This document shows positions 525 to 16,438 of a stretch of 64,000 nt of DNA, piece after piece. How positions within the stretch are numbered: position 1 is the stretch's first letter; the number at the start of each line of letters is the position of its first letter. Made by a program: the position numbers and the translations under genes. A model generated the notes under the pieces. That model was not told the origin of the DNA, did no database searches, and was given only the letters and a program-made list of their open reading frames with translations. This stretch comes from Actinacidiphila bryophytorum. Its GTDB lineage: Bacteria; Actinomycetota; Actinomycetes; Streptomycetales; Streptomycetaceae. The stretch spans positions 248,001-312,000 of the forward strand of contig NZ_JAFFIX010000008.1 of NCBI RefSeq assembly GCF_016916835.1. The letters are read 5' to 3'.

Positions 525-750
525 GATCATCGCAGGATCGTAGTGAAGGTCCGGCCCAATCATGAAGTCGGCTGGTCAGCGGGACGGTTGCGGCACCGGA
601 AGGGCGGACTCCGGTCCGCCGGGACCGACTTGGCGAAGTCTTTACAACCCGGGTCCGCGCTGTGTCGTCTCTGATCGCGACTCCTGGTACGGCCGGGGTC
701 CGCGCCCGCTCCAGGGCGCGGCGGGCCGCGGGAGAACGGAGGGACGGGAC

Positions 751-1476: not shown

Positions 1477-1568
1477 CGTGCCACCCACGCCCGTACCTCA
1501 GCCACAGCCGTGGCCTCCCCCCGCGCCCGTACGGGGCGCCTCCCCCCGCAGCGCGACTGCGGACGCGT

Positions 1569-1737
1569 CGTGGCTTGTCGCGCAGTTCCCCGCGCCCCTG
1601 GGGGTGCCCTCTGGGGAGAGGGCGAGCGTTTTTAGGGGCGCGGGGAACTGCGCGCCCCATCACGACGCACGGAAAGGTGCAAGCTCGCAGCAAGTGGCAA
1701 TCACCCAGGGGCGCGGGGAACTGCGCGACAAGCCACG
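1569..1737. repeat. Perfect 32-bp inverted repeat with a third internal copy of its core
   Basis: Positions 1569-1600 and 1706-1737 are exact reverse complements over 32 bases. The core GGGGCGCGGGGAACTGCGCG recurs a third time at 1634-1654 in the same orientation as the right arm. The core matches a small intergenic palindromic repeat that I recall as widespread in Streptomyces genomes. It sits between the sorted DUF4232 gene and the sortase and could fold into a long stem in the transcript. The right arm falls inside the apparent N-terminus of the sortase if the start at 1694 is used. Confidence 0.8.
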
Positions 1738-2380
1738 GCGGTGGCGCGGGGGACGCGCAGCGTGGGGGGTGGTGGCGGTCATCGCCGCGGTGGTGACCGC
1801 CGGGTGCGACGGGAAGAGCGAGGGCCAGGCGCCGCCCCCGGCCGCGACGGGACGGCACCCCGGCACAGGAGCGGCCACCACCACGGTGGCCCCAAGTGCG
1901 GGGAAGGCCACCCCGATGGCCAGGTCGCAGCCGCAGCGGCTGCGGATACCGGGGCTCGGGGTGGACACCCCCGTCATGTCCGTGGGACTCGCCCCCGACG
2001 GCACCGTCCGCGTCCCGCCGATCAAGGCGCACTCACCGGCCGGGTGGTACGACGGTTCGCCGACGCCGGGCGAGACCGGCCCGTCCGTGCTGCTGGGGCA
2101 CGTGACGGTCGGCGCGTACGGCGACGGCGTCTTCCGGCACCTGGACCGTATGCGCCCCGGCGACCGGGTGAGCATCACCCGGTCGGACGGCACGACCGCG
2201 ACCTTCGCCGTCGACAAGGTGCAGACGGTGGCGAAGTCGCACTTCCCGACGGAGGCGGTGTACGGGAACGTCGACCACCCCGCCCTGCGTCTCATCACGT
2301 GCGGCGGCACGCGTATCTCCGGCGGTGGCGGCTATACGGACAACGTGATCGTCTACGCCTCGCTGGTCGGCGGCTCGTGA
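1694..2380 (+). CDS. Class F-like sortase
   Basis: A sortase-fold transpeptidase expected to cleave sorting motifs of exported proteins. From GTG 1694 it has 228 residues: a basic stretch, a hydrophobic segment ending in VVTAGC that could be a lipobox or membrane anchor, a Thr/Pro/Ala-rich linker, then the beta-barrel from LRIPGLGVDTPV. The catalytic His is in LLGHVTVG (about residue 136) and the Cys in LITCGG (about residue 203). The position where I expect the catalytic Arg (Y-R-D-N in relatives I recall) reads YTDN; an Arg lies four residues after the Cys. The start is uncertain: GTG 1769 or upstream GTGs (1604, 1409) are in frame, and the repeat arm occupies the early codons. The stop overlaps the sigma factor start as GTGA. 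Confidence 0.75.
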   Translation: MAITQGRGELRDKPRRWRGGRAAWGVVAVIAAVVTAGCDGKSEGQAPPPAATGRHPGTGAATTTVAPSAGKATPMARSQPQRLRIPGLGVDTPVMSVGLAPDGTVRVPPIKAHSPAGWYDGSPTPGETGPSVLLGHVTVGAYGDGVFRHLDRMRPGDRVSITRSDGTTATFAVDKVQTVAKSHFPTEAVYGNVDHPALRLITCGGTRISGGGGYTDNVIVYASLVGGS

Positions 2381-2922
2381 ACGACTGGCCGGCGGCGGCC
2401 AGCACCCCGGCGACAGGAGTGAGGAGAGCGGTCATCCGGCGAGAAGAGCGCGCTGCCTCCGAGCTGTTCGAGGCCGTGTACCCGCGGCTCGCGGGCTGGT
2501 GCCGCCGGCTGGTGGACGACGACGGGACGGCGCACGAGATCGCCGCGGAGGCCTTCACCCGGCTGTGGGCGCGCTGGACCGCGGTCGAGGAGCCCAACGG
2601 CTTCCTCTATGTGACCGCGGCCAACCTCGTCCGCGACCACTGGCGCAGAATGGAGCGCGAGCGTCGCGCGCTGCGCCGGGTGAGGACCGAGCAGTCCGTA
2701 CGCCCGCAGGAGGAGGCGGCCGACCCGTCCGTACGCCTGCTGGTTCAGTCGCTGCCCGAGCGGCTGCGCAATCCCGTCCTGCTGTACTACTACGCCGACT
2801 TGCCGGTCCGTGAGGTGGCCGCGCTGCTTGGCCGGAACGAGGGAACCGTGAAGGCCGACCTGCACGCGGCACGCGAACTGCTCCGCGCCCGAATCAGGGG
2901 ACACCATGACTGGATTTCCTGA
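2377..2922 (+). CDS. ECF-type RNA polymerase sigma factor (SigE-like)
   Basis: 181 residues with the two expected regions. Region 2 runs from about residue 28 (LFEAVYPRLAGWCRRLV) to 80, and region 4 from about 125 (LPERLRNPVLLYYY) to 170 with a helix-turn-helix (VREVAALLGRNEGTVKADL). It should direct RNA polymerase to a small regulon. GTG 2377 overlaps the sortase stop as GTGA, implying translational coupling; GTG 2416 is an alternative. The next gene starts 17 bases before its stop and encodes a one-pass membrane protein, the position normally occupied by an anti-sigma factor. I infer that the pair forms a membrane-controlled switch. Confidence 0.88.
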   Translation: MNDWPAAASTPATGVRRAVIRREERAASELFEAVYPRLAGWCRRLVDDDGTAHEIAAEAFTRLWARWTAVEEPNGFLYVTAANLVRDHWRRMERERRALRRVRTEQSVRPQEEAADPSVRLLVQSLPERLRNPVLLYYYADLPVREVAALLGRNEGTVKADLHAARELLRARIRGHHDWIS

Positions 2923-3757
2923 CCCCCGGGGGGACGCACCGGACGGCGACGGCGCCGCGCCGGCGGAGCCGCTGCTGCGGCAGCCGCCGGGGTATCTGGA
3001 CGCGCCGCCTGGTGCGTTCGCGCAGATCCGGCGGCGGGCGGCGCGGCGGCGCCGGGTGCGGGCGGCCGGCGGCGGGCTGGCGGCGGCCGTGGTGCTGACC
3101 GGGTCCGTGTACCTGGTCGGCGCGATGACCTCGCACGGCTCGGACGACGTGGTCAGCCCGCCCGCCAGCAACTCGCTGACCAGTGCGGCGACTTCTGCTC
3201 CCACGCCGACCCGGGGCACCGCCCCGACGCCGACCCCGGGCACGACGGCGCCGCCCGGCACGGGCACCCGCGGGCCGACGGCCACCGGCACCCCCACGCC
3301 GGACCCGGCCCCGACCCGGACCGGCCCGGCGAGCGGCAGCGGGGCGACGCCGATGTGCGCGACCTCGCAGCTGACCGCAGCGCTCGGCGGCGGCGACGCG
3401 GGAGCCGGCAGCCTCTTCCGCTATCTGGTGCTCACCAACCACAGCTCCACGGCCTGCCATCTCACCGGCTACCCGGGGCTGTCGATGCTGGACGCGGACG
3501 GCAGGCAGATCGGGGCGCCGGCCGACCGGCAGCCGATGGCGTACTCGGCGGTGGTGCTGCGGCCGGGCGGGTCGGTGAGCGACACCATCCACACCGTCAA
3601 CCAGCAGGGCACCTGCCTGCCCGCGTCGGTGAAGCTGCGGATCTACCCGCCGGGCAACACCGCGTGGCTGGACTTCCCCGGGAGCGTCACCAACTGCGAC
3701 AACCTCTTCACGGTGACGCCGTTCGCAGCCGGGCGCACGGGCAACCCGCCGTCATGA
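2906..3757 (+). CDS. One-pass membrane protein with DUF4232 ectodomain, candidate anti-sigma factor
   Basis: 283 residues. ATG 2906 lies inside the sigma gene's 3' end behind a purine-rich site. A short cytoplasmic part (residues 1-52, very Arg-rich near the membrane) precedes one transmembrane helix (about 53-74), a long Thr/Pro linker (about 75-148) and a C-terminal DUF4232 domain. That domain carries the same cysteines and landmarks as the sorted protein at 751 (GGGDAGAG, YLVLTNHSST, RIYPPGNTA). Co-translation with the ECF sigma factor suggests an anti-sigma role, but no zinc-binding anti-sigma motif is visible in the short cytoplasmic part, so this is inference. A simple membrane-tethered DUF4232 protein is the alternative. 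Confidence 0.78.
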   Translation: MTGFPDPRGDAPDGDGAAPAEPLLRQPPGYLDAPPGAFAQIRRRAARRRRVRAAGGGLAAAVVLTGSVYLVGAMTSHGSDDVVSPPASNSLTSAATSAPTPTRGTAPTPTPGTTAPPGTGTRGPTATGTPTPDPAPTRTGPASGSGATPMCATSQLTAALGGGDAGAGSLFRYLVLTNHSSTACHLTGYPGLSMLDADGRQIGAPADRQPMAYSAVVLRPGGSVSDTIHTVNQQGTCLPASVKLRIYPPGNTAWLDFPGSVTNCDNLFTVTPFAAGRTGNPPS

Positions 3758-3777
3758 CCTGCCGCCGTCGGCAGGTC
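3756..3777. terminator. Hairpin between convergent genes
   Basis: GACCTGCC and GGCAGGTC form a perfect 8-bp stem with a 6-base loop, directly after the stop at 3757 and before the convergent stop at 3791. There is no T-run, as is usual for terminators in high-GC actinobacteria. Likely bidirectional. Confidence 0.6.
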
Positions 3778-3790
3778 GCCACTCGCCGGG

Positions 3791-4615
3791 TCACCACTCG
3801 TCGGGGCCGCCCGGCAGGTCGAGCAGTGCCAGGTCGGGCGGTACGAGGGTGGTGGACAGCAGGAGTTCGCGCAGCAGGTGGTCGTTGAGGGTGTTGCCGA
3901 CGGGTTCGCCGACCTCCTCGCGGGTCAGGAAGGGGACGCCGTCCCTGGACAGCCGGGTGCGTACCGCACTGACCACGTGCTCGACCTTCTTGTGCCCCCA
4001 GTTCGCGGCGGGCTGCAGGCGGGCCAGGTGGGCGGCGGTGTCCTGCCAGGTCAGCGGCTGCGGGCGCAGTTCGTGGAGCAGGTAGCGGCGGCCGAGGACG
4101 ACCAGGACGAGGCGTTCCTGCTCGCTGAGCAGCCAGGTGCGCGGCGGCAGTGTGATGTCCTCGGGCCGCGGGGTAGGGGCGGCGCCGTCCTGGTCGGTGA
4201 CGTAGACCTCCAGCAGGTGCTCGCGGTGCCGTGAGCCGCGGACGAACAGCGGGGTGTAGCCGGCCTCCAGCGGCAGCGCCTCCTCGCCGGTGAACAGCAG
4301 CCGCCCGCGGGCCAGCCGGATCGGCAGCCGGCCGTGGTTGCTGATCCACCACTGGCCGCCGCGGTGGGTCAGGGTGCCCTGGTGGCGGCTGACCAGCGGG
4401 TCGTCCTCGCCGAGGCAGACGTGCACGGCCGGGCGGTTGCGGCCGAAGAGGACCTCGCGGCCGGGGCCCGGGCCGAGCCGCATGCCGCCGGTGAGGGCGA
4501 GCGCGAAGACGGTGCCCGCGACGGGGGCGGAGACCCCTCGGGCGAGGCTGCCGTGGGTGCCGGGGAGCCGCTGCCCGCCCGGCAGCCCTGCGGTGCCGGC
4601 GGTGTCTGTCGTCAT
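3791..4615 (-). CDS. FHA-domain protein with C-terminal helical (HTH-like) region
   Basis: 274 residues, cytoplasmic. An FHA domain spans about residues 45-115, with LFGRNRPAV, the DPLVSRHQG phosphothreonine-binding core and ISNHG. FHA domains dock phosphothreonine peptides, usually the product of a neighbouring Ser/Thr kinase. The second half (about 150-255) contains LLSEQERLVLVVLGRRYLL and a helical stretch ending in KKVEHVVSAVRTRL that resembles a winged-helix or HTH fold. I am not certain it binds DNA. ATG 4615 has GAGGAAG upstream. It lies 45 bases after the membrane kinase gene and is almost certainly co-transcribed with it, so it is a likely reader or substrate of that kinase. Confidence 0.85.
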   Translation of the reverse strand: MTTDTAGTAGLPGGQRLPGTHGSLARGVSAPVAGTVFALALTGGMRLGPGPGREVLFGRNRPAVHVCLGEDDPLVSRHQGTLTHRGGQWWISNHGRLPIRLARGRLLFTGEEALPLEAGYTPLFVRGSRHREHLLEVYVTDQDGAAPTPRPEDITLPPRTWLLSEQERLVLVVLGRRYLLHELRPQPLTWQDTAAHLARLQPAANWGHKKVEHVVSAVRTRLSRDGVPFLTREEVGEPVGNTLNDHLLRELLLSTTLVPPDLALLDLPGGPDEW

Positions 4616-4660
4616 GGCTGCTTCCTCGTCGGGGGCGGTGCGGAGCGCGGGCGCGCCCGC

Positions 4661-6601
4661 TCAGCGGCCGGGCAGCCGTGCCGCGGCCGCCGTGCCCAAC
4701 TGCTCGGCTGTGTCGCAGAGTTTCCCCACCGCGCCGCTTCCCGACACCGTCAGCTCGACGAGTTCCTCGACGTGCTGCCCGGTGATGTCGGTGAAGTCGC
4801 GGTTGACCAGCCGCAGAGTGCAGGTGCCCCGGTCCTCGTACTCGGGGCTGACGAAGCCCTTGGCGCCGCCGAGCCGGACGGGAGTGCCGTCGCTGGTGTC
4901 CAGCGGCGGGGAGTTGCGGTCGAAGACCAGGTCGATCCCGCTGTCGCCGTCGGAACTGCCCCAGTGGCAGCCCCAGTTGCCGAAGTCCCGGTCGGGGTCG
5001 TCGGCGTGGACGCCGCCCGGGACCGCGCCGATGGCCGCGGGCGTGAGCAGGGAGCAGGCGTCGGCGGTGGCGAGCGAGGCGGGGACGGCGGCGGACGGGC
5101 GGCGCGGTACGGTCCCGGCGCGCAGCACGGTCACCGCGTGGTCGGTGGCGGCGTCGGCCATGGCGCACAGGTCGGGTCCACTGTCGCCGGTGAGCCGGGC
5201 CATGATCTGGATGTGGTTGCCGTCGTCGAGTTGCAGGGTGCGGTCGCACTCGTCGCCGTCGAGGGGTTCGGACGCCACCGTCACGTTGCCGGTCCTGCGG
5301 GTGGGGATGTGCGAGCCGGCCTCGACGTCCTTGCCGAGCAGGGTGGCGGCAACGTCCACGGCCGGGTCCTGCCGGGGCGGTCCCACCAGGACGTCGCAGC
5401 GGTCGAAGTTGCCGTAGTCGGTGACCAGGTCGGTGCTGCCGAAGCGGGCCAGCGGTGCGGTGGCCAGCACCGAGCAGGGGTCGGCGCTGCGGGGGTCGCC
5501 GAGCGCGCTGCGGGCGGGGGACGCGGGGGCGGTCGGCGCGGAGGTGGTGGCGCCGGCGCCGGGCCTGGCGCGGGTGGCGGAACTGCCGGACCGGGCCTGG
5601 GCCGGTGACCCGTCGTCCCAGGGGCTCAGGGACAGCAGGACGGCGGCTGCCGCGGCGGCGAGCACCAGCGCCCCCAGCGCGGCCCGGGTACGGCGCCCGC
5701 CCCACCGGCCGGGCGGGCCGAGCGGCGGCAGGCCGCGGCGCCGGCCGAGGTCGGCGCCCTCGTTGTGCAGCCGGCGTACCGCCTCCGACGGCGGGGCGAC
5801 CTCCGCCATCAGGTCGCGGGTCTCGGCGGCGGCGGGCCTGCTGCCGGGGTCGACCCGCAGCAGTGCGGTCAGCGGCCCGGTGAGCCGGCCGGCCTGCCGG
5901 GGCGGTTCGATGTGGCCGTCCCTGGCCCGCCCGATGTAGGCGAGCGGGCTCTCGGCCTCGCCGTAGGGCACCCGGCCCTCGACGGCGGCGAAGAGCGCGG
6001 CGCCCAGCGAGAACTGGTCGGACTGCCGGCTCGCGGGTTCGCCTTTGGCCACCTCGGGGGCCAGGTAGCGGGGTTTGCCGGGCACACCGCCGCTGAGGCT
6101 GTCGCGGGTGTCGTCGCTCCACAGGGCGCGTGAGATGCCGAAGTCGGCGAGCTTGGCGATGCCGTCGTCGGTGACGAGGATGTTCTCCGGCGTCACGTCG
6201 CCGTGCACGACGCCCTTGGCGTGGGCGGTCGCGAGCGCGTCGGCGATCTGCCAGCCGATCACGGCGGCCTGCTCGGGGCTCAGCGGTCCGTCGTCGGCGA
6301 CGACGGCGGCGAGGCTGCGGGAGCGGACGTACTCCATGACCAGCCAGCTCTGGCCGCCGTCCTCGATGTGGTCGAAGACCGCGACGATGTGCGGGTGGTG
6401 CAGGCGGGCGGCGTTGCGGGCCTCGCTGCGCAGCCGGCCTGTGGCCCTCGCGTCGTCGATGCGGGCGCACTTGAGGGCGACGGTGCGGTCCAGTTCGCGG
6501 TCGTAGGCCCGCCAGACGACGCCCATGCCGCCGGCGCCTATGCGTTCTCGCAGCAGATAGCGCCCGGCTACTTCGTCACCGATCTCCGCCGTTCCCCGCA
6601 C
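4661..6601 (-). CDS. Membrane Ser/Thr protein kinase (PknB-type) with extracellular domain
   Basis: 646 residues from GTG 6601, chosen because GGAG sits 6-8 bases upstream; GTG 6619 would add six residues. The kinase domain covers about 15-270: Gly loop GAGGMGVVW, catalytic Lys in VALKCAR, DFG and APE. The catalytic loop reads HGDVTPENIL, so the usual HRD arginine is a glycine. A transmembrane helix follows a basic juxtamembrane stretch (around residues 300-325, LGALVLAAAAAAVLLSL). The remaining roughly 310 residues are extracellular, with a Ser/Thr/Pro linker and a duplicated-looking, cysteine-containing region (PCSVLATAPLARF, ACSLLTPAAIG). It probably senses an envelope signal. Operon partner: the FHA gene. 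Confidence 0.9.
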   Translation of the reverse strand: MRGTAEIGDEVAGRYLLRERIGAGGMGVVWRAYDRELDRTVALKCARIDDARATGRLRSEARNAARLHHPHIVAVFDHIEDGGQSWLVMEYVRSRSLAAVVADDGPLSPEQAAVIGWQIADALATAHAKGVVHGDVTPENILVTDDGIAKLADFGISRALWSDDTRDSLSGGVPGKPRYLAPEVAKGEPASRQSDQFSLGAALFAAVEGRVPYGEAESPLAYIGRARDGHIEPPRQAGRLTGPLTALLRVDPGSRPAAAETRDLMAEVAPPSEAVRRLHNEGADLGRRRGLPPLGPPGRWGGRRTRAALGALVLAAAAAAVLLSLSPWDDGSPAQARSGSSATRARPGAGATTSAPTAPASPARSALGDPRSADPCSVLATAPLARFGSTDLVTDYGNFDRCDVLVGPPRQDPAVDVAATLLGKDVEAGSHIPTRRTGNVTVASEPLDGDECDRTLQLDDGNHIQIMARLTGDSGPDLCAMADAATDHAVTVLRAGTVPRRPSAAVPASLATADACSLLTPAAIGAVPGGVHADDPDRDFGNWGCHWGSSDGDSGIDLVFDRNSPPLDTSDGTPVRLGGAKGFVSPEYEDRGTCTLRLVNRDFTDITGQHVEELVELTVSGSGAVGKLCDTAEQLGTAAAARLPGR

Positions 6602-6791
6602 CGCGCCGCTCCATTGCACAGATCACGCCTCGTGCCCGCTCCAGCGCAAGGAGCGTACTGCACCCGGCCTGCCCCGGCCGCCACTTGCACCTCTCCGTCA
6701 CCGGGGCTGCGGCCCGTTCCGGGACCGGTCCCGGGCGGCCGGCCGTACGGTCCGCTGGTCCGCGGCGACGGCACGGGAAGGAGCGGGCGCG

Positions 6792-7772
6792 ATGGGTCAG
6801 GGGCAGGAGTCCGCCGCCCGGCGGCCGCTGCTGCGCGAGGGCGGCACGGTGGGCGCCGGCTACCTGGTGGAGCGCTATCTCGGGCAGGGCGCCTACGCGG
6901 AGGTCTACCGGGTGCGGCACCCCTATCTGGGGCGGCAGGCGATGAAGGTCTTCCGGCAGGTCGCCGACCGCGCCGCGGTGGACGCGCTGCTGGCCGAGGC
7001 GGTGCTGCTGTCCCGGCTCGGGCACCCCAACATCGTGCGGGTCTTCGACGCGGGCACCACGCCCACCGCAACGGGTGAACGCGCCTACTTCACCATGGAG
7101 TACGTCGCCGGCGGCACCCTGGCGCGCTTCATGGACGGGTGGCTGGAGCGTACGGGCCACGTGCCGGTCGCGGCGGCCGAATGCGTGCTGCGCCAGGTCA
7201 GCTCGGGGCTCGCGCTCGCGCATGCCGCGCGGCCGCCGATCGTGCACCGCGACATCACCCCGCACAACATCCTGGTGGGTCTGGACGGCGACGGCGCGCA
7301 GCCGATCCGGGCCAGGCTCGGCGACTTCGGCCTGGCCACCCGCACCGACCCGCGTACCGGACTGGCCGGCGCCCAGGGGGTGCCGGCGTTCACACCGCCC
7401 GAGACGCTGCTGGGCTTCCGCGGTGACTCGCGCAGCGGCGACGTGTGGGCGCTGGGTGTCGTCGGCTACCTGCTGCTGACCGGGCGGCTGCCCTACCCGC
7501 GGGGCCTGGCCGGCTGGATGACCGGCTCGCACCGCCGCGCGCCCCCTCCGTCGCCCGGCGAGCTGAACCCGGACGTGGACCCGGAGTTGGAGCGGATCGT
7601 GCTGGAAGCGCTGGCCGTGGACCGCGAACTGCGCACTCCGGACGCGGGGGTGCTCGCCGGGCGGTTCGAGCGGCGGGCGGAGCGGCTGCGCGGCGGCCGG
7701 CACGTACCGGGGACCGGGAGCGGCGGATCAGGGACGAGCGGCGGCACGGATGAGGGAGCAGGGCGGCGATGA
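6792..7772 (+). CDS. Soluble Ser/Thr protein kinase
   Basis: 326 residues. ATG 6792 follows GGAAGGAG. The kinase domain spans about residues 20-285, with Gly loop LGQGAYAEVYRV, Lys in AMKVFRQV, the canonical IVHRDITPHNILVG loop, DFGLATRTD and a TPPE in place of APE. There is no transmembrane segment, and the short C-terminal tail is Gly/Ser-rich, so the enzyme is cytoplasmic. It is the first gene of a five-gene operon that continues with a membrane partner protein, a GrpE-like protein, Hsp70 and an OmpA-domain protein, and is divergent from the other kinase/FHA pair. I infer that it phosphorylates one or more of these neighbours. The next gene starts 23 bases before its stop. Confidence 0.9.
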   Translation: MGQGQESAARRPLLREGGTVGAGYLVERYLGQGAYAEVYRVRHPYLGRQAMKVFRQVADRAAVDALLAEAVLLSRLGHPNIVRVFDAGTTPTATGERAYFTMEYVAGGTLARFMDGWLERTGHVPVAAAECVLRQVSSGLALAHAARPPIVHRDITPHNILVGLDGDGAQPIRARLGDFGLATRTDPRTGLAGAQGVPAFTPPETLLGFRGDSRSGDVWALGVVGYLLLTGRLPYPRGLAGWMTGSHRRAPPPSPGELNPDVDPELERIVLEALAVDRELRTPDAGVLAGRFERRAERLRGGRHVPGTGSGGSGTSGGTDEGAGRR

Positions 7773-9396
7773 GCAGGGCGGACGGTGCGCGATGACGGCG
7801 CCTGGGGACGAGTTGGCACCGGTGCTGGCCAGGATCTCGGGTACGGACCTCTACCGGGGCAACGCCTTCGTGGTCACGGGCCTGCCCGCGGACGCGACAC
7901 CCGCGGCGGTGCGCAGGACCCGCGAGGAGGCGCTGCTGATGAGCAGGCTCGGCGCTCCTGCGGCGGGCGCGGCGGCGCGGACGGCCGCGCCGGACGGCGA
8001 GGAGGCGCTGCGGGCGGCGTACGAGACGCTGCGCGACCCGGTGGCGCGCCTCGTCCACGAACTGCTGTGGCCGCAGGGGCGCTCGGAGCCGGCGTGGAGC
8101 GGCGCCGAGCAGCACGCGCAGGCCGCGCGCGAGCACCGCGAGGCGGTGGAGGGCGAGGCGGCGGGGCCGTACGAGCCGGGGTCCGCGGAGGCCGCGCGGC
8201 TGGATGCGCTGTGGACGGCGTCGCTTGCCGGGTGGGCGTCGGTGCTCGCCGGCCACGGCCTGTGGGACCACGCCAAGCGGCGGGTGGCCGAGATCGGCGA
8301 CCCGCGGCTGACGACCGGGACGGTGCGGCGGCTGCGGGACCGGCTGCCGCGCCATCTGGCGTCGGTGACCGCGGAGTTGGCGCTGCGCGAGGTGGTGCGG
8401 GGCAGGCCAGCGGGGGCCGGGCGGCTGGTGGCGCTGCTGCACGCCTCGCCGCTGCCCGAGCGGGCGGTGGCCGACGCGCTGCGCGAGGTGGTGCGGCCCG
8501 CCGAGACGGCGCTGCGCGCCGCGTGCACGGCCGCGCGCGAGGCGGTTAGCGCCGAGGAGGGGGACGGCGGCCCCGCGGCGGCGGCGCTGCTGGAGCGGAT
8601 CGGCGAACCGCTGGGGGTGGTGCGCACCGTCCTGGGCGCGGACGCCGCCCTGACCTCGGCTTTGGAGGAGGAGATCGCCTCGGCGCTCAACCAGTGCGCG
8701 GTCGGCGAATTCCACGCGACCGGGCGGGTCAGGGCGCCGCTGGGCGTGCTGGCCGCGGCCGCCGGATATGCGCATGTGCAGCGCACCAGGGACCTCATCG
8801 AGCGCAATGTCGACGTCGTCTCGCACAGCAGGAACGCCGCGCCCACCGGCCCGTCGGACGACCTGCCGCCGAGACTGCGGGAGATGTGCGTCGAGGGCAA
8901 GGTGGAGCGGCCCGCGGCCTTCCTGCGGGCGATGGCCGCACGGGTGGCGGCCAGGGACAAGGAGCTGGGCAGGCAGCTGCTCGCCCTGGCCACCGACCGC
9001 AGGAGCGTGGCCGCACCCGTCACCCGGCAGCCCTTCACCGGGCGCCTGCTCGGCTGCGGTGTGCACGCCCTGCGAGCCGGCGCGCCGAACCCGGAGGGCC
9101 TGGTCTGGGTCACCCATGTGCTGACCCTGTGCTGGCTGCCGCTGCTGCCGCTGGCGGCCTACGTGCGGGACGACTCGGGGGTGCGCGCCAAGGTGCCGCT
9201 GACCGGGCGGGCCCGCTGGACGCGGCGGTGGACGGTGCTGATGGTGCCGGTCGTGGTGCTGCTGCTGACGGTGGGCGTGCCGGCCGCCGCGGTGGCGGTG
9301 CCCGCCCTGTGGTTCGGCTACGGCGTCTTCCTGAGCAAGGTCCGCGAGGAGCGGGTCCGCATGTGGTCGCGCTGGGACCGGGGGCGGCACCGGTGA
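7750..9396 (+). CDS. Hsp70-operon membrane protein, possible co-chaperone
   Basis: 548 residues from ATG 7750; ATG 7792 would shorten it by 14 and is also plausible. The N-terminus (DLYRGNAFVVTGLPADATP, then RREEALL-like helices and AAYETLRDPVARLVHELLW) resembles the helical start of J-type co-chaperones in layout, but no HPD signature is present, so I do not call it DnaJ. The middle is a long Ala/Arg/Glu-rich helical region. The C-terminus carries two hydrophobic segments (around residues 455-475 and 495-525) that should place it in the membrane with a short basic cytoplasmic end. The stop overlaps the next start as GTGA. Family not recognised; the operon position suggests work with the Hsp70. 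Confidence 0.72.
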   Translation: MREQGGDEQGGRCAMTAPGDELAPVLARISGTDLYRGNAFVVTGLPADATPAAVRRTREEALLMSRLGAPAAGAAARTAAPDGEEALRAAYETLRDPVARLVHELLWPQGRSEPAWSGAEQHAQAAREHREAVEGEAAGPYEPGSAEAARLDALWTASLAGWASVLAGHGLWDHAKRRVAEIGDPRLTTGTVRRLRDRLPRHLASVTAELALREVVRGRPAGAGRLVALLHASPLPERAVADALREVVRPAETALRAACTAAREAVSAEEGDGGPAAAALLERIGEPLGVVRTVLGADAALTSALEEEIASALNQCAVGEFHATGRVRAPLGVLAAAAGYAHVQRTRDLIERNVDVVSHSRNAAPTGPSDDLPPRLREMCVEGKVERPAAFLRAMAARVAARDKELGRQLLALATDRRSVAAPVTRQPFTGRLLGCGVHALRAGAPNPEGLVWVTHVLTLCWLPLLPLAAYVRDDSGVRAKVPLTGRARWTRRWTVLMVPVVVLLLTVGVPAAAVAVPALWFGYGVFLSKVREERVRMWSRWDRGRHR

Positions 9397-9911
9397 GCCG
9401 GGCGGAGCGGCTGCGCGGGCACCTGCGGCAGCGCCGCCAGTCGGCCGAGTTCCGCATCGCCGACGACTACCCGCCGGCCGGGCTGCTGCCGGCGCCCGTA
9501 CCGGAGCCCGAGCCGCCCGCGGTACCGGAGCCGCGGGCAGCAGCGGCGGCGCAGGCCTCGGACGCCGACCTCGCGGACCTGGCGACGCAGCTGTGGCGGC
9601 TGGGCAGGAAGCTCGCCGAGCCGCCGCCGGACGACCGGGGTCCCGGTGGGGCCGCGGCCCGCCGCAAGGAGTCCCGCCATCTGCGGGCAGCGCAGGACGC
9701 GCTGGGCAAGGCCGGGGTGCGGGCGGAGGACCACGACGGGACCGAGTTCGACATCGGCCTGACCCTCGACGTGCTGGCGTACCAGCCGGTCCCGGGCGCG
9801 ACCCGGGAGACCGTGCACGAAACCGTACGGCCCTCGGTCTACCGGGACGGCCGCCGTATCCAGATGGGCCAGGTCATCGTGGCCCAGCCGGAAGGAGAGC
9901 AGGACCTGTGA
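9393..9911 (+). CDS. Small GrpE-like protein of the Hsp70 operon
   Basis: 172 residues. GTG 9393 overlaps the previous stop (GTGA) and its own stop overlaps the Hsp70 start (GTGA), so it is tightly co-translated. Residues 25-60 are Pro/Glu/Ala-rich; the middle is a helix (LADLATQLWRLGRKLAE through RAAQDALGKAG). The C-terminus (GLTLDVLAYQPVPGATRET, then a Tyr/Arg/Gly stretch ending in GQVIVAQP) has the layout of the GrpE C-terminal beta domain. GrpE proteins are ADP/ATP exchange factors for Hsp70. The long N-terminal coiled coil of normal GrpE is mostly missing, so this would be a minimal version. The assignment is inference from layout plus context. Confidence 0.65.
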   Translation: MSRAERLRGHLRQRRQSAEFRIADDYPPAGLLPAPVPEPEPPAVPEPRAAAAAQASDADLADLATQLWRLGRKLAEPPPDDRGPGGAAARRKESRHLRAAQDALGKAGVRAEDHDGTEFDIGLTLDVLAYQPVPGATRETVHETVRPSVYRDGRRIQMGQVIVAQPEGEQDL

Positions 9912-12433
9912 CCCCGCAGAACACGACCCGCGAGACCGTCGACTTCGGCATCGACCTGGGCACCACCAACAGCGCCATCGCCGCCTCGACGGGGGCGGGC
10001 GCCGACATCGTGCGCAACAACCTGCGCGACGAGTACACACCGTCCGCGGTGCACATCAACCGGTCGGGGACGGTCGTCGTCGGCAAGCGCGCCAGGGCGC
10101 GGCTCGACGTCGACCCGGCCAACACGCACGCCGAATTCAAACTGCAGATGGGCCTGCGGGACGCGGTGCGCGAGTTCGCCGGCTCCGGACGCACCATGAC
10201 GCCCGAGCAGTTGTCGGCCGAGGTGCTCAAGTCGGTGCGCGCCGACGTGCGCAGCGCGCTCGGCGAGGAGATCGGGGCGGCCGTCATCACCGTGCCCGCG
10301 GCCTTCGAACTCGACCAGTGCGAGGCGACCCGGCGGGCGGCGAAGCTGGCCGGCCTGGACTTCGCCCCGCTGCTGCAGGAGCCGACCGCGGCCGCGTGGG
10401 CGTACAGCGCGGCGGCCTGCGATGTGCCGTCCCGCGGCTTCTGGCTGGTCTACGACCTGGGCGGCGGCACCTTCGACGCGTCGGTGATCCAGATCGAGGA
10501 CGGCGAGTTCGGCGTCGTCAACCACGCGGGCGACAACTTCCTCGGCGGCAAGCTGATCGACTGGATGCTGGTCGACGACCTGCTGATCCCCGCGGCGCGC
10601 ACCGAGGACGGCATGGCCTCGCTCGACCGGGCCGACCCGCGGCAGGCGGGCAACATCGCCAAGCTCAAGCAGGCCGCCGAGGACGCGAAGATCGAGCTGT
10701 CGCACTCCCCCGCCGCCGAGATCGACGTCCAACTCACCGGTGAGCGCGGCGAGTCGGTGGCCTTCGTGCACGAGATCGCCAGGGCGGACCTGGAGCGGCT
10801 CGCGATGCCGCTCTACCGGCGCTCGGTGGAGCTGTGCCGGCGGGCGCTCGCCGAGAAGGGGCTCGCGCCCGCCGACATCGAACGGGTCCTGCTGGTGGGC
10901 GGCGCCACGCTCGCACCCGCGCTGCGCGAGCTGCTCGCCGACCCGGCGGAGGGCCTGGGCATCCGGCTCGACCACAGCCTCGACCCGGTCACGGTGGTGG
11001 CCCGCGGGGCGGCGGTCTTCGCGCGCACCCAGCGGCTGCCGCAGTCGTTCCTCGACGCTTCGGCGCAGGCCGGCGACGTGCTGCTGGACTTCGCGCACAA
11101 ACCCACGGGCCGGAGCAGCGACCCGCTGGTGGGCGGCACGGCACGCACCGCGGACGGCAGCCCGCGGGACTGGACCGGCTGCACGGTCGAGTTCGTGGAC
11201 GACGCGGATGGCCGCCCGCAGTGGCGCAGCGGCCAGGTGCCGCTGGGGGCGGACGGCAGCTTCGCCACCCGGCTCAAGGCGCGCGGTGCGCACAACTCGT
11301 ACGCGATCGAGTTCCGCACCGCCCAGGGCTCCTTCCAGCCGACCAGGCCCGACCGCACGGTCTACCAGCAGCTGGCGCTCGTCGGCGGTGACGCGACCAT
11401 GAGCCACTCGGTCGGGGTGTGGGTCGAGGGCAACGAGGTCGCGTGGATCCTGCGCAAGGGCACAGAACTCCCCGCCAGCGGGCGGCTGGTGCTGGAGTCG
11501 ACAGTGGATGTGCGGCGCGGCGGGCGGCAGGGCCTGATCCGGGTGCCCATCGTGCAGGGCGAGCGCGCCCGCGGCGACCGCAACCCGGTCGTCGGGCAGC
11601 TGGACATCAGCCCGGAGGAGATCTCCCGGGACGTGCCGCTGGGCAGCGAGATCGAGGTCACCGTGGAGATCGACCAGAGCTTCCGCACCCGGGTCGACGC
11701 GTACATCCCCATCCTGGACGAGGAGTTCGAGATCGACGTCGAACTGGCCAGGGACGCGCCCGACGTCGCGGAACTGCGCCGGCAGAGCCGGGCGGTGGCC
11801 GCGCAGTACGCCACCTTGCGCAACCGGGCCGGCAGGTCGGACGCCGGGCGCGCGACCGAACTGCTCGACGGCTTCGACCAGGACGGCGGCATCGGCGGGA
11901 TCGACCGCGAACTGGAGTCCGCGGGCGTCGACCCGGACGGCGCCGCCGTCGTCCAGGAGCGGCTGCGGCAGGCCGAGACGGCACTGGACGAGGCGGAGGA
12001 GGCACTGAAACTGCCGCAGCTGGTACGGGCGGCCGGCGATGTGCGCAGCTGGGTGCGCGACGCGGTGGACGAACACGGCGACGCCGCCGCCAGGGGCGAA
12101 CTGGCCGAGGCGGAGCGCCAGTTGGACGCGGCGATCGAGACCGGCGACCCGACGCTGGTCGAGCACGCGACGGACGCGGTGCGCGGGGTGGGGCTGCGGG
12201 TGCTGGACTCCGCGGACCAGCTGCCGGTGCTGCGCTTCGCCTCGCTGAAGGAGACCTTCTCCGGCAGCACGGAGCCCCGGGTGGTCCGGCTGCTCCAGGA
12301 GGGCGCGGCGGCGCTGGCGGCAGACGACATCTCCCGGCTGCGGTCGGTCGTCATCGACCTGGGCCGCCTGGTGCCCTTCAGCGGGTCCCGCAGCGACACC
12401 CCGGCCGACACCACCGTGCGGCGGCAGCGGTGA
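9908..12433 (+). CDS. Divergent Hsp70 (DnaK family) chaperone
   Basis: 841 residues, much longer than housekeeping DnaK (about 620). GTG 9908 has GGAAGGAG upstream and overlaps the preceding stop. ATPase landmarks are intact: phosphate-1 FGIDLGTTNSAIA (residues 13-25), phosphate-2 VYDLGGGTFDAS (about 181), PTAAAWAY, and the adenosine motif VLLVGGATLAP (about 327). After the nucleotide-binding domain, the substrate-binding region is present but poorly conserved (about 400-610). The last 230 residues are charged and helical, replacing the usual lid. It is probably an accessory Hsp70 dedicated to the clients of this operon rather than a general heat-shock protein. No CIRCE or HAIR element was seen upstream. 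Confidence 0.93.
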   Translation: MTPQNTTRETVDFGIDLGTTNSAIAASTGAGADIVRNNLRDEYTPSAVHINRSGTVVVGKRARARLDVDPANTHAEFKLQMGLRDAVREFAGSGRTMTPEQLSAEVLKSVRADVRSALGEEIGAAVITVPAAFELDQCEATRRAAKLAGLDFAPLLQEPTAAAWAYSAAACDVPSRGFWLVYDLGGGTFDASVIQIEDGEFGVVNHAGDNFLGGKLIDWMLVDDLLIPAARTEDGMASLDRADPRQAGNIAKLKQAAEDAKIELSHSPAAEIDVQLTGERGESVAFVHEIARADLERLAMPLYRRSVELCRRALAEKGLAPADIERVLLVGGATLAPALRELLADPAEGLGIRLDHSLDPVTVVARGAAVFARTQRLPQSFLDASAQAGDVLLDFAHKPTGRSSDPLVGGTARTADGSPRDWTGCTVEFVDDADGRPQWRSGQVPLGADGSFATRLKARGAHNSYAIEFRTAQGSFQPTRPDRTVYQQLALVGGDATMSHSVGVWVEGNEVAWILRKGTELPASGRLVLESTVDVRRGGRQGLIRVPIVQGERARGDRNPVVGQLDISPEEISRDVPLGSEIEVTVEIDQSFRTRVDAYIPILDEEFEIDVELARDAPDVAELRRQSRAVAAQYATLRNRAGRSDAGRATELLDGFDQDGGIGGIDRELESAGVDPDGAAVVQERLRQAETALDEAEEALKLPQLVRAAGDVRSWVRDAVDEHGDAAARGELAEAERQLDAAIETGDPTLVEHATDAVRGVGLRVLDSADQLPVLRFASLKETFSGSTEPRVVRLLQEGAAALAADDISRLRSVVIDLGRLVPFSGSRSDTPADTTVRRQR

Positions 12434-13455
12434 CCACCTCTCAGAGCCGCGTCGCCGGGCCGCGCAGGGGGCAGCCCGGCGACGCACCCCGCCCGGCGCG
12501 TGCGGCAGAGCCCGGCCAGGTGCTGGCGGTGGCGGCGCGGGCCGCGCGCGGCGGGCGGTACGGCGAGGCGCGGATGCTGCTGGACACGCTCGGGGGCAGC
12601 GGGTCCGCCGATCCCGCGGTGCTCGACCTGCTGGCGCGGATCCACGCCCAGCGCGGCGAACTGGCCGCGGCGGACGCCCTGTGGGCGCGCGTCGAGGAGG
12701 GCGACCCGCGGCCGGCCGCGGCGACCGCGGCGGGGGCGGGGCGGCGGCGGATCGCCGCCGTGCTGGCTGGGCGGGCGCGGCCGTCGGCCGGGCGGCGGGC
12801 CGCCGCGGCGGCCGTGGTGGCAGCCGCCGCGGGTGCGGCGGTCGCCGGCGCCCTGCTGCCGCGCACGCACGCCGACCCCGACCGGGTCACCGGCACCGAC
12901 CTGGCGGCGGTACGGGACGGGCAGGCGACGCTCGCCGGGCGGCTGGAGGCGCTCGGCACCCGGGTGGACAGCGGGCTCAGCGGCCTGGCCTCCGCCGCGG
13001 CGCCGCAGCCCTCCCCCGTGACGCCGTCCCCCGCCGCCCCGCCTCCCCCGGACATCGGCGGGCCGGGGCGCACGGTCTCACGGCAGGGCGACGCCCTGGT
13101 CGTCGTCTTCGACCAGGGCCTCTTCGGGCGCGACGCCCGGCTGACGGCCGCGGGCGCGGCGGCCCTGGACGACCTCGGGCGGCGGTTGCGGCGGGCGGGC
13201 GTGAGCGGGCCGCTGGTGGTCACCGGGCACACCGACGACCGGCCGCTGCCGCGCGGCGCCGCGGTCACCGACCGGATCACGCTGGGCTTCGCCCGCGCCC
13301 AGGCGGCGGCCGGGCACCTGGCGGCGGCGGCCGGCATCCCGCCGGCCGCGGTCGGCATCCGCAGCACCGGCACACTGCACCCGCCCTACCCCGACGACTC
13401 GGCGGCCGACCGCGCCCGCAACAACACGGTCACCGTCCTGGTCGGCACCCCGTGA
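12430..13455 (+). CDS. Membrane-anchored OmpA-domain protein with TPR-like N-terminus
   Basis: 341 residues. GTG 12430 overlaps the Hsp70 stop (GTGA). Residues 25-95 look like one or two TPR-type helical hairpins (RGGRYGEARMLLDTL, ARIHAQRGELAAADALWARV). A basic stretch precedes a transmembrane helix at about 118-138, followed by a short coiled region and a Pro/Ser-rich linker. The OmpA-like peptidoglycan-binding domain covers about 215-341 (LVVTGHTDDRPLP, the Arg-rich DRARNNTVTVLV end). The topology puts the TPR-like part in the cytoplasm and the OmpA domain at the wall, a physical bridge between the Hsp70 and peptidoglycan. Last gene of the operon; a strong hairpin follows at 13463. Confidence 0.87.
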   Translation: MTTSQSRVAGPRRGQPGDAPRPARAAEPGQVLAVAARAARGGRYGEARMLLDTLGGSGSADPAVLDLLARIHAQRGELAAADALWARVEEGDPRPAAATAAGAGRRRIAAVLAGRARPSAGRRAAAAAVVAAAAGAAVAGALLPRTHADPDRVTGTDLAAVRDGQATLAGRLEALGTRVDSGLSGLASAAAPQPSPVTPSPAAPPPPDIGGPGRTVSRQGDALVVVFDQGLFGRDARLTAAGAAALDDLGRRLRRAGVSGPLVVTGHTDDRPLPRGAAVTDRITLGFARAQAAAGHLAAAAGIPPAAVGIRSTGTLHPPYPDDSAADRARNNTVTVLVGTP

Positions 13456-13462
13456 CGGCGCC

Positions 13463-13500
13463 GGGCCGGCGGACCCCCGGGAGGGGGGTTCCGCCGGCCC
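13463..13500. terminator. Strong hairpin after the Hsp70 operon
   Basis: GGGCCGGCGGACCCCC pairs with GGGGTTCCGCCGGCCC, giving a stem of about 16 bp with one mismatch around a short GC loop. It lies 8 bases after the OmpA-domain stop and faces the convergent pectate lyase operon. Likely factor-independent terminator of the L-shaped actinobacterial kind (no T-run). Confidence 0.7.
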
Positions 13501-13686
13501 GGTTCTGCCCGGTCGCGGACGCGGTGGCGGTGGTGGGGGGAAGCCGCTCGGGCCGGCGGCAGGGCCGCCGCGCCCGCCGCGCGGGCCGTCCTGAGGCACC
13601 TTCACAATCGCTTGCTGGGATGTCACCTGAGCAGGAGATGCCTGATCAGCGCCCATCCAGGAAGCGCTTACCGGCCATGCGGAAGG

Positions 13687-15000
13687 TCACAGCCGCCCCG
13701 CGCCCGCACCGCCGTCCACGATGTGCGGGACGGCCCGCGGGTCGTCGACGCGGGTGCGCAGCGTCGGCGTCCAGCCCGCGCCCTGGGCGATGGGAGTGGC
13801 GGGGTTGGCGGCGTTGAAGGCGCCGAGCAGGTCCGCGATGCGGCCGTTGACGTAGTTGTGGTCCTCGGTCATCGCGGTGCCCTTCCAGTACGCGATGGTG
13901 CGGTCCGCGGTGACGCCGGCGGGCAGGGTGAAGGCGTTGCTCTCGGCGACCAGTTGGGACTGGAAACCGACGCCGAGGCTGTAGACGTAGTCGGCCGCGT
14001 CGGTGACCAGGTAGTGGTTGTTGTAGGTGTCGACCTGGCCGAAGCGGACCCGCGGGGCGCGCTCGCCGATGGCCTTGAAGAGGTTGTGGTGCAAGGTGAT
14101 GCGCAGCTTGCCCGCGTCGGTGGCGGCGGCGCCGTCGCTGTTGCCGAACAGCAGCGTCTTGTCGTGGTCGGTGAAGGCGTTCCAGGAGGCGGTGACGTAG
14201 TCGGCGCCCTTGACGACGTCGAGTTCGCCGTCGTGCTGCTGGTAGATCCGCCCGAAGTAGAAGGGCTGGTCGGCGTCGGGGCGGCGGCCGTCGGTGAAGG
14301 TGTTGTGGTCGACCCAGACGTGGGTGGAGCCGGTGACGACGAGGTTGTCGTACTCGGAGTTCCAGTTGCCGGTGGCGCCGTCGGTGGGGTCCCACTGCGG
14401 GAAGCAGTCGAAGGCGTCCTCGAAGGCGAGGTTGCGGACGATGACGTTGTCCGAGCCGCTGACCTGGAGGTCGAGGCCCAGCAGCTTGGGGTTGCGGCCG
14501 ACGCCGACGATGGTGGTGTTGGAGCCGACCTTCAGCTCGACCCGGGCGGCCTGCTTGGCCGCGGACGCGGCCCTTGCGTCCTCCTGGGGTCCTGCCGGCA
14601 CCTCGTCCATGCCCCACACGGCCGGGTCGTAGGCGGCCAGGTAGGCGTCCAGGCTGTAGCCGTCGGTGGCGTAGTCGTCGCAGGACAGCGGGGCGCCGGT
14701 GTCGTCGGCATTGCCGTCGACGGTCCCGGAGACCTGGATGATCTTGGGGGTGGCGCTGCCGTTGTCCAGGGCGGCGGCCAGTTCTGCGCGGTTGGTGACG
14801 GTGAAGACATGGGCGGCGTCGGCGGCTGCGCCGCCGGTGGTGCCCGCGCCCTGCGAGGCCCAGCCGTCACCGGCCGGCAGCGCCTGCCGGGCGTAGTGCG
14901 GCAGCTTCTGGCCGGTCCCGCAGTGCGCGGGTGCGGCGGCGAGCATCAGGGGGGCTGCGGAGACCAGGACGGCGATCATCGGGACATGGCTCTTGCGCAC
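13687..15000 (-). CDS. Secreted pectate lyase (PL1-type)
   Basis: 437 residues. GTG 15000 follows GGGAG. Signal peptide at residues 1-27 (MRKSHVPMIAVLVSAAP through AAAPAHC). The body is a right-handed parallel beta-helix lyase: GVGRNPKLLGLDLQVSGSDN, FEDAFDCFPQWDP, VWVDHNTFTDGR (the vWiDH signature), and the RAPRVRFGQVD segment that carries the catalytic Arg. It cleaves polygalacturonate by beta-elimination outside the cell, giving unsaturated oligogalacturonides. It is the last gene of the GntR-controlled operon, separated from the binding-protein gene by a strong hairpin. This is the only enzyme in the operon that indicates the polymer, so pectin is the likely inducer source. Confidence 0.92.
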   Translation of the reverse strand: MRKSHVPMIAVLVSAAPLMLAAAPAHCGTGQKLPHYARQALPAGDGWASQGAGTTGGAAADAAHVFTVTNRAELAAALDNGSATPKIIQVSGTVDGNADDTGAPLSCDDYATDGYSLDAYLAAYDPAVWGMDEVPAGPQEDARAASAAKQAARVELKVGSNTTIVGVGRNPKLLGLDLQVSGSDNVIVRNLAFEDAFDCFPQWDPTDGATGNWNSEYDNLVVTGSTHVWVDHNTFTDGRRPDADQPFYFGRIYQQHDGELDVVKGADYVTASWNAFTDHDKTLLFGNSDGAAATDAGKLRITLHHNLFKAIGERAPRVRFGQVDTYNNHYLVTDAADYVYSLGVGFQSQLVAESNAFTLPAGVTADRTIAYWKGTAMTEDHNYVNGRIADLLGAFNAANPATPIAQGAGWTPTLRTRVDDPRAVPHIVDGGAGAGRL

Positions 15001-15049
15001 TGCGGCTCCCAGTGGGGGGTGGCGGAGATGTCGGGGTGGGAAAGGGGGG

Positions 15050-15086
15050 CGGCGGGGGCCGGCGCTCGGGGGGCCGGCCCCCGCCG
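15050..15086 (-). terminator. Intra-operon hairpin between binding protein and pectate lyase genes
   Basis: A perfect 14-bp stem (CGGCGGGGGCCGGC with GCCGGCCCCCGCCG) and a 9-base loop begins 6 bases after the sugar-binding-protein stop. It could protect the 3' end of the upstream mRNA and partly terminate, so that the binding protein is made in excess over the lyase, or mark the lyase as a separate unit. Confidence 0.6.
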
Positions 15087-15091
15087 TGGGG

Positions 15092-16438
15092 TCATTTCTT
15101 GTTGTGCTGGGCGAAGTCCGCCTGGGCGTCGTTGAGTTTGCCGGCCAGCTCGTCGGCGAACTCCTTGGCGGTCATCTTGCCGAGCAGGACCTTCTGGAAG
15201 TCGGGCTCGGTGTCGGCCTTCGTGATGGTGTTCCAGTCCGGCAGGTAGTACGGGAACTGGACGATCTTCGTCTTGGGGTCGTTGAGCGAGTCCATGGCCA
15301 CCTTGGTGGGCTTGGACTCGTTGATCCACTGGTCCTTTTCCGCACCGGTGTTGGCCGGGATGGACGCGGCCGACTGGCTCCACAGGCTGTTCATCGGCGC
15401 GGACGCGGCGAACTCGATGAACTTCCAGGCGGCGGCCTTGTTCTTGCCGGACTTGAACAGCCCGAGCCCGTCGACGGGGTTGGAGACGATGGTCCGCACC
15501 CCGCCGTCCTGCGAGGGCGGCAGGGGGATGCCGTCGACCTTGTCCTTGCCCAGCGCCTTGACGTGGTCGTTGTACGAGCCGAGGTTGTGCTGCAGCATGC
15601 CGACGTTGCCGTGGTCGAACTCGGCGACCATGTTGACGAAGTCGTTGTTGAGGTCCGCCTCGGGGGTGGCCTTCTTGTACAGGCCGACGTACTTCTCCAA
15701 CGCCGCGATGTTCTTCGGGTCGTTGACGGTGGTCTTGTCGCCGTCCCAGAAGCTCTCGATGCCGGACTGGGCGTACATCATCTCCAGGGCCTGGGCGATC
15801 GAGCCCTTGCCGCCGCGGATGGTGAAGCCGAACTTGTTGTCCGAGGCCGCGGTGAGCTTGTCGGCCGCCGCGTAGAAGGCCGACCAGGTGGTGGGCGGCT
15901 GCAGGCCGGCCGCGCTGAACAGGTCGGTGCGGTACCAGATGGTGCCCTGGTTGGCGGAGGTGGGAACCTCGTACATCTCCTTGCCCTGGCCGCCCGCCGC
16001 CTGGACGCTGGTGACCATGCCGGTGACGAGCTTGCCCTTGAGGTCGCTGCCGTCGATCCGGTCGCCCACCGGCTCCAGCGCGTTCTGCGCCACCATGTTG
16101 GCCAGGTAGGCCGTACCGACCCCGCCGACGTCGGGCAGCCCGCCGCCGGCTATCGCCGTGTCGTACTTCTTCTGCACGTCGGCGATCGGGATGCCGACGT
16201 ACTCGACCTGGATGTCGGGGTACTTCTTCTCGAACGCGGCGATGATCTGCTTCCAGACGTCGGTGCGGACACCGCCGTTGTTGTCCCAGAAGACGATCTT
16301 CCCCTTGCCGCTGCCCTCGCCGCCGGAGTCACCGCTGCCGGAGTCACCGCAGGCGGTGGCGGTCAGGGCGAGTGCGGCGACGAGGGCGATGCCGGCGGCC
16401 GGCCGGGCTCTGCGCTGTCTGTGCTGCGGTTGTGACAT
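15092..16438 (-). CDS. ABC transporter sugar-binding lipoprotein
   Basis: 448 residues from ATG 16438, preferred because GAAAGAG lies 7-12 bases upstream; ATG 16465, which would overlap the previous stop as ATGA, adds nine residues. A basic signal peptide ends in a lipobox (LTATACGDS), so the mature protein is lipid-anchored outside the membrane. Family-1 extracellular solute-binding features follow: IVFWDNNGGVRTDVWKQII, FEKKYPDIQVEYV, and the C-terminal NPVDGLGLFKSGKNK region. It should capture an oligosaccharide for the permeases at 18491-20301. No ATPase gene is present; Streptomyces sugar transporters commonly share a distant MsiK ATPase. The ligand is not determinable here; pectin-derived oligosaccharides are likely. 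Confidence 0.9.
   Translation of the reverse strand: MSQPQHRQRRARPAAGIALVAALALTATACGDSGSGDSGGEGSGKGKIVFWDNNGGVRTDVWKQIIAAFEKKYPDIQVEYVGIPIADVQKKYDTAIAGGGLPDVGGVGTAYLANMVAQNALEPVGDRIDGSDLKGKLVTGMVTSVQAAGGQGKEMYEVPTSANQGTIWYRTDLFSAAGLQPPTTWSAFYAAADKLTAASDNKFGFTIRGGKGSIAQALEMMYAQSGIESFWDGDKTTVNDPKNIAALEKYVGLYKKATPEADLNNDFVNMVAEFDHGNVGMLQHNLGSYNDHVKALGKDKVDGIPLPPSQDGGVRTIVSNPVDGLGLFKSGKNKAAAWKFIEFAASAPMNSLWSQSAASIPANTGAEKDQWINESKPTKVAMDSLNDPKTKIVQFPYYLPDWNTITKADTEPDFQKVLLGKMTAKEFADELAGKLNDAQADFAQHNKK

Follow-up and report, generated by a model that had tools for sequence, protein, structure and literature searches.

The locus considered here poses the question of what an additional Hsp70, encoded together with co-chaperone-like partners, protein kinases and a wall-binding protein, might be for. 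It lies in a window of 64,000 nt (the whole stretch of DNA that was analysed, to which coordinates refer) from the 8.05 Mb genome of the actinobacterium Actinacidiphila bryophytorum, and comprises seven genes: a kinase/FHA arm (3791-6619, - strand) divergent to a five-gene operon (6792-13455, + strand). All seven could be confirmed in the sequence at the positions given by an earlier note on this DNA. We found that these genes are present or absent as a block and make up one co-inherited unit. Judged by sequence, the core of the operon, a triad of a degenerate J protein, a minimal GrpE and an Hsp70 with an inserted domain, recurs in Actinomycetota, Bacteroidota and Pseudomonadota. That the genes work as one mobile functional unit around a dedicated wall-tethered Hsp70 machine, most likely in defence and with envelope guarding as a close alternative, is a reading that we would accept about as readily as doubt.

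The unity of the cassette emerges from its gain and loss among actinobacteria. The divergent gene order is kept in L009 (genome G097), L014 (Streptomyces sp. AcH 505) and L015 (Streptomyces sp. CBMA29), the contig of the last ending inside the membrane kinase; two of these three are congeners, and the close relatives with the cassette include the Streptomyces sp. CBMA29 match. The AcH 505 copy, whose GrpE-like and OmpA genes contain runs of N, shows 53-76% identity over most genes and is flanked differently from that of the window. The distribution is sparse, with the Hsp70 in 3 of the 35 genomes of the genus, the J-like protein in 3 of the 200 genomes of the family and the Hsp70 C-terminus in a single genome among 396 across the phylum; a scan of genome contigs by two peptide patterns returned two loci only. 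In the congener G055 (L076), which has no cassette, only about 150 bp separate the matches to window 1-3757 and 13686-15545. Another congener, G043 (L077, contig C14), has a short FHA-gene remnant between the flanks at about 2380-2570, an apparent scar as would be expected after deletion of the cassette. The empty site and the scar together indicate that the kinase/FHA arm and the chaperone arm are one unit. The expectation that the set is not a random one in relatives is thus borne out by a survey of actinobacterial gene neighbourhoods showing kept order and block-wise presence or absence; random association of the genes was rejected on the conserved order and the empty syntenic site. The site itself, with a DUF4232 gene on one side and a pectate lyase gene on the other, is variable: in the close relative G059 (L075, contig C90, 13428-16326) it holds a PAS-PP2C (SpoIIE-type) phosphatase, an alpha/beta hydrolase and a NUDIX gene.

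The Hsp70 is recovered by the Pfam model PF00012 (E 2.3e-75 for the nucleotide-binding domain, NBD; 254.5 bits against a cut-off of 20.6) and has the NBD motifs GIDLGTTNS (phosphate), EFKLQMG, QEP and DLGGGT. It scores far below the DnaK equivalog cut-offs (256.9 against 648 bits and 254.3 against 822.6 bits) and is by this test no canonical DnaK. As the DnaK substrate-binding domain (SBD) aligns at residues ~501-591 (C-terminal profile, E 0.02) and the linker lies at 389-395, about 105 residues are inserted after the linker. Alignment with the window genome's own DnaK places an insertion at the same point in the relatives from Pseudomonadota and Bacteroidota; in the Shewanella Hsp70 one of the motifs went undetected in the motif check. 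Since the genome keeps a separate dnaK-grpE-dnaJ set (at C34), the Hsp70 set of the cassette is an extra one, and an ordinary heat-shock operon was rejected on the same ground. A third Hsp70-like match in this genome (G000:C1:325629-325925, 54.6 bits) falls in a 450-residue open frame.

The two partners of the Hsp70 are far more diverged. The J-like protein has no meaningful Pfam match (PF00226). By hhalign its N-terminus aligns with canonical J domains (P 3.2e-5, probability 73%), as do the Pseudomonadota homologues (P 0.0014), with none of 60 shuffles as high in either case; the N-terminus of the Haliscomenobacter homologue does not rise above shuffles. The HPD motif is missing from the first 220 residues of all 11 J-like homologues, so this is not an ordinary DnaJ co-chaperone. 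A transmembrane (TM) helix occupies residues 485-503. In the AlphaFold2 (AF2) model the middle is helical and the N-terminus has a predicted local distance difference test (pLDDT) value below 50, so that its J fold is without structural confirmation; in structure comparison of this model the middle matched only generic TPR or 14-3-3-like helical bundles, with no J domain listed. J-like homologues are joined by BLAST within Pseudomonadota and by profile to the actinobacterial ones: the latter match those of Pseudomonadota with P 0.006 and that of Haliscomenobacter with P 0.0006 (0/100 shuffles), this last match falling in the middle region.

For the GrpE-like protein, likewise, no meaningful Pfam match was obtained (the PF01025 cut-off was not reached), and the NCBIfam GrpE model gave 15.2 bits against 211. 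By hhalign (P 4.7e-7) it is homologous to small proteobacterial proteins of 114-124 residues whose genes immediately precede related Hsp70 genes, and its match to canonical GrpE is weak (P 0.004 for the window, 0.003-0.004 for both groups, 0/100 column shuffles as high). A poor AF2 model (pLDDT 56, two sequences) has two main helices followed by six strands. Human GrpEL1 appears twice among its VIA structure matches with the longest alignments (Z 7.0, root-mean-square deviation 6.7, 87 residues; Z 6.9, root-mean-square deviation 5.3, 83 residues), at scores tied with those of unrelated helical proteins in the list. Searches of PDB sequences with the GrpE-like and J-like profiles gave nothing useful. 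Taken together, the profile comparisons lend weak to moderate support to a relationship of the J-like N-terminus to J domains, and the same holds for that of the GrpE-like protein to GrpE.

The remaining four products supply candidate signalling and anchoring parts. Both kinases are recognised by the Pfam Pkinase model, the membrane kinase with E 8.8e-42 (and DUF3558 at 1.6e-13) and the soluble one with 1.1e-34; their matches to the PADLOC models PD-T4-6 and mad6 were set aside as generic kinase homology. PADLOC has no model that matches the Hsp70, J-like or GrpE-like proteins. The FHA protein scores 17.5 bits, just under the curated Pfam cut-off of 20.7, with readable GR, SRH and N motifs and orthologues in the same place in L009 (90% identity) and L014 (76%). 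Similarly, the OmpA protein lies just under its Pfam cut-off (E 7.8e-6, 26.6 against 27.2 bits) and matches the type VI OmpA model with 2.1e-8; its domain keeps the peptidoglycan-binding Asp and Arg in the window, L009 and L015 (GHTD, GFARA). As the earlier note had it, GTGA overlaps mark every operon junction but the first, that is the last three of four (GTG at 9393, 9908 and 12430). At the kinase/J-like junction 19 bp separate the kinase stop from a conserved ATG at 7792, most likely the start of the J-like gene, an overlapping ATG at 7750 being also possible.

Table 1. Features of the seven-gene cassette in window coordinates, and proteins with the N-terminal motif in other loci
Feature	Position	Strand	Evidence
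FHA-domain protein, 274 residues, likely phosphothreonine reader	3791..4615	-	Pfam FHA 17.5 bits, orthologues in same place
Membrane Ser/Thr kinase: kinase domain, one TM helix (residues 313-331), extracytoplasmic DUF3558-like region	4661..6619	-	Pfam, TM prediction
Divergent intergenic region between the two transcription units	6620..6791	.	Arrangement kept in L009, L014, L015
Soluble Ser/Thr kinase, 326 residues, HRD and DFG motifs	6792..7772	+	Pfam Pkinase
J-like membrane protein: degenerate N-terminal J domain (putative), helical middle, TM near C-terminus	7792..9396	+	hhalign, TM, AF2
Minimal GrpE-like protein, 172 residues: two short helices and C-terminal beta domain (predicted)	9393..9911	+	hhalign, AF2
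Hsp70, 841 residues: intact nucleotide-binding domain, inserted domain, SBD-beta, long helical C-terminus	9908..12433	+	Pfam HSP70
DnaK-like interdomain linker GDVLLDF (Hsp70 residues 389-395)	11072..11092	+	Motif read
Inserted domain of ~105 residues between linker and SBD-beta (boundaries approximate)	11093..11407	+	DnaK alignments
Wall-binding protein: TPR-like N-terminus, TM 125-143, OmpA domain 235-331, GHTD...GFARA motif	12430..13455	+	Pfam, TM
Block absent as a unit in congener G055	3758..13685	.	Flanks compared
Proteins with KGFAGLSSLVSDVD-like motif	L021 11894 and 16562; L020 13434; L019 6031 (-); L037 23951		

Next to the cassette, window 562-3757 presumably contains genes for a pair of similar secreted DUF4232-like proteins, separated by a sortase-like gene and a sigma factor gene.

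A search that began from one Bacteroidota plasmid match and was extended with the C-terminal part of the Hsp70 carried the comparison beyond actinobacteria. The Haliscomenobacter Hsp70 is 28.7% identical to that of the window over 760 residues (8e-85). Further relatives reside on plasmids of Aminobacter, Sinorhizobium, Polaromonas, Vibrio, Shewanella and Aeromonas; one was present among 5426 E. coli genomes, and none was found in viral contigs and phage records. A GrpE-like gene lies immediately upstream of the Hsp70 gene in all the loci compared (gaps of -4 to +20) and is a small gene in every annotated locus examined except that of Haliscomenobacter, in which a TM coiled-coil protein carries the GrpE-like part at its C-terminal end, with a weak match (P 0.01, 0/100 shuffles). 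Outside actinobacteria the separate kinase/FHA arm is missing, and an AAA ATPase or a kinase-AAA fusion is found instead. The AAA ATPase of the beta- and gammaproteobacteria is homologous to the AAA half of the Haliscomenobacter fusion, whose kinase domain matches the soluble kinase of the window (27.7%, 3e-20) and is closer to it than to the membrane kinase. Some mobile copies are probably inactive, as an ISNCY transposase interrupts the Hsp70 gene in Sinorhizobium medicae (L038, 6080-10482), and in Aeromonas caviae that gene is annotated in two pieces (L022, 7951-10448).

In most sets there is also a membrane protein whose outer domain is of a peptidoglycan-binding or related type. For instance, PG_binding_1/2 is fused to the J protein in Aminobacter, PG_binding_1 is found in Shewanella and SH3_3 in Polaromonas, and the Vibrio protein has a peptidoglycan-binding domain by annotation. 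The membrane proteins of E. coli and Sinorhizobium have in common a domain RYC...YN.RCSSYRY and are without a recognised wall-binding domain. This pattern suggests that the link to the wall may be supplied by unrelated domains in different lineages. The RYC...YN.RCSSYRY domain, which is extracytoplasmic, is common to the C-terminus of the L017 J protein and to L018, L020, L021 and L037, being fused to the J protein in Alphaproteobacteria and a separate protein in Gammaproteobacteria. Despite differing outer domains, the membrane proteins of the gamma and beta groups have a common cytoplasmic N-terminal motif like KGFAGLSSLVSDVD (Table 1), which may serve the Hsp70 machine as a tag for docking or recognition.

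Several of these relatives sit beside named defence genes in the PADLOC annotation: BREX with BrxL in Haliscomenobacter, ZorA, ZorB (Zorya) and GajB in Polaromonas, GajA and GajB (Gabija) in S. medicae, weaker GajA/GajB-like genes in Aminobacter, and RdrB (RADAR) in E. coli, where the locus, a five-gene homologue in HeN100, lies in a tRNA-Phe island. In Shewanella and Aeromonas, which share one element, the copies lie behind the tns genes of a Tn7-like transposon. Such settings raise the possibility of a role in maintenance of the carrier, in which the Hsp70 would be an actin-like ATPase acting in segregation or stabilising the element, as its relatives are on plasmids and its NBD belongs among the actin-fold ATPases (MreB match, 4.1e-7). 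We consider this very improbable: SBD-beta, the linker and the J-like and GrpE-like partners indicate a chaperone cycle, and the copies in actinobacteria and E. coli lie on chromosomes or large scaffolds. The mobile and defence contexts of the relatives favour defence over a housekeeping wall chaperone.

A more serious rival, which we nevertheless regard as unlikely, is an envelope-stress chaperone, a specialised module of Hsp70 quality control that would repair or monitor membrane and wall proteins under kinase control with no defence role. The TM helices of the kinase, J-like and OmpA proteins and the OmpA domain itself speak for it, as do the ordinary chromosomal flanks in actinobacteria and the phosphatase and hydrolase at the G059 site, which recall stress-sigma control; the actinobacterial setting indeed favours envelope stress. 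It sits poorly with so sparse a presence (3/35 in the genus, 1/396 in the phylum), with gain and loss as a block and with the plasmid, Tn7-like and defence-island contexts of the relatives.

Several points weigh against defence by an Hsp70 machine at the wall. The missing HPD leaves activation of the Hsp70 by the J-like protein unsupported, and the membrane proteins of other lineages were equated with the OmpA protein by type of domain rather than by homology. With one control stretch taken elsewhere on each of seven replicons, mostly on the far side, named defence genes are near five of the seven loci against two of the seven controls (type III CRISPR, BREX), a difference too small for significance, so that the defence context is suggestive only. 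The flanks of the actinobacterial cassettes (DUF4232, sortase, pectate lyase, ABC-transporter and ferritin-like genes) include no evident defence island, and no nuclease or other recognisable effector is encoded in the cassette. The earlier note had proposed a phospho-regulated chaperone acting at the cell wall. Of this, the single unit, the private Hsp70 with J-like and GrpE-like partners and the membrane-spanning OmpA component with its Asp and Arg stand, and regulation of the chaperone by the kinases is a conjecture; the contexts of the relatives point to defence in place of housekeeping at the wall.

Turning back to defence as the preferred role, we infer the positions, signalling and target of the machine as follows. 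The OmpA protein would fasten the complex to peptidoglycan, while the Hsp70 would be kept at the inner face of the membrane by the TM J-like protein. Either a breach of the envelope or a foreign protein there might be sensed by these anchored proteins together with the outer DUF3558 region of the membrane kinase, with kinase and FHA signalling setting the threshold, a part that the AAA ATPase or the kinase-AAA fusion would play in other lineages. The Hsp70, recharged by its private GrpE-like factor, would then bind and remodel its target at the disturbed site, thereby defending against phage or other incoming elements or, alternatively, guarding the envelope under stress.

The claim of the earlier note that no system of this composition has been described agrees with our finding none among open-access PubMed Central (PMC) papers, a coverage outside which most subscription papers and preprints fall. 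The canonical DnaK-DnaJ-GrpE system has the same three functional parts, and the cassette Hsp70 keeps the NBD motifs and SBD-beta; it differs in its inserted domain and longer helical C-terminus, and the partners in the J protein lacking HPD and the GrpE-like protein lacking the long N-terminal helix. Zorya also couples an OmpA-type peptidoglycan anchor to a cytoplasmic machine in a mobile defence context; however, the cassette has no counterpart of the MotA-like motor protein ZorA, its OmpA protein matches ZorB with an E of only 0.0021, and its engine would be an Hsp70. In the type III CoCoNuT systems a homologue, the Hsp70-like CnuD with ATPase motifs described as degenerate (PMC11090510), is likewise part of a defence-associated operon, in some cases with kinases (TerY-P) nearby. 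However, these systems rest on McrBC GTPases and RNases, whereas the cassette keeps intact Hsp70 motifs and yielded no McrB or RNase domain.

The closest parallel is offered by the GAP1-N2 GTPase-centred conflict systems, for which private HSP70, GrpE and DnaJ-domain sets have been described (Kaur et al., 2020, PMC7159879). Like the cassette, these operons, some of them actinobacterial, are membrane-proximal and encode a private HSP70, a GrpE and a DnaJ-domain or TPR protein, in some cases also kinases. The likeness suggests a further rival, in which the Hsp70 set would be a thresholding device for an effector encoded elsewhere in the genome, since in the published actinobacterial neighbourhoods (PMC7159879) HSP70, GrpE and proteins fused to DnaJ are paired, frequently at the membrane. 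We judge this improbable: no GTPase, GAP1 or FNIII protein, the core of those systems, and no vWA domain was found in the seven products, and no constant effector gene adjoins the unit. The cassette is further set apart by its degenerate J domain, its two kinases with an FHA protein and its OmpA wall anchor.

There is a substantial chance that the cassette represents a separate type of immune system. We tentatively propose, while leaning somewhat to doubt, an undescribed family of Hsp70-centred wall-tethered immune systems in Actinomycetota, Pseudomonadota and Bacteroidota, with plasmids, Tn7-like transposons and genomic islands as carriers; in these systems a private Hsp70-J-GrpE cycle, controlled by kinases or an AAA protein, would act where the envelope is breached. 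Among conflict systems, complete private sets of Hsp70, J and GrpE proteins were otherwise found described only in GTPase-centred neighbourhoods. If true, the present one would stand for an architecture of its own, distinguished by its wall anchor and degenerate J protein and retained across very great distances. The cassette is small enough for transfer to a laboratory host, which would make it a testable question whether the chaperone cycle itself can sense or block the entry of a phage.
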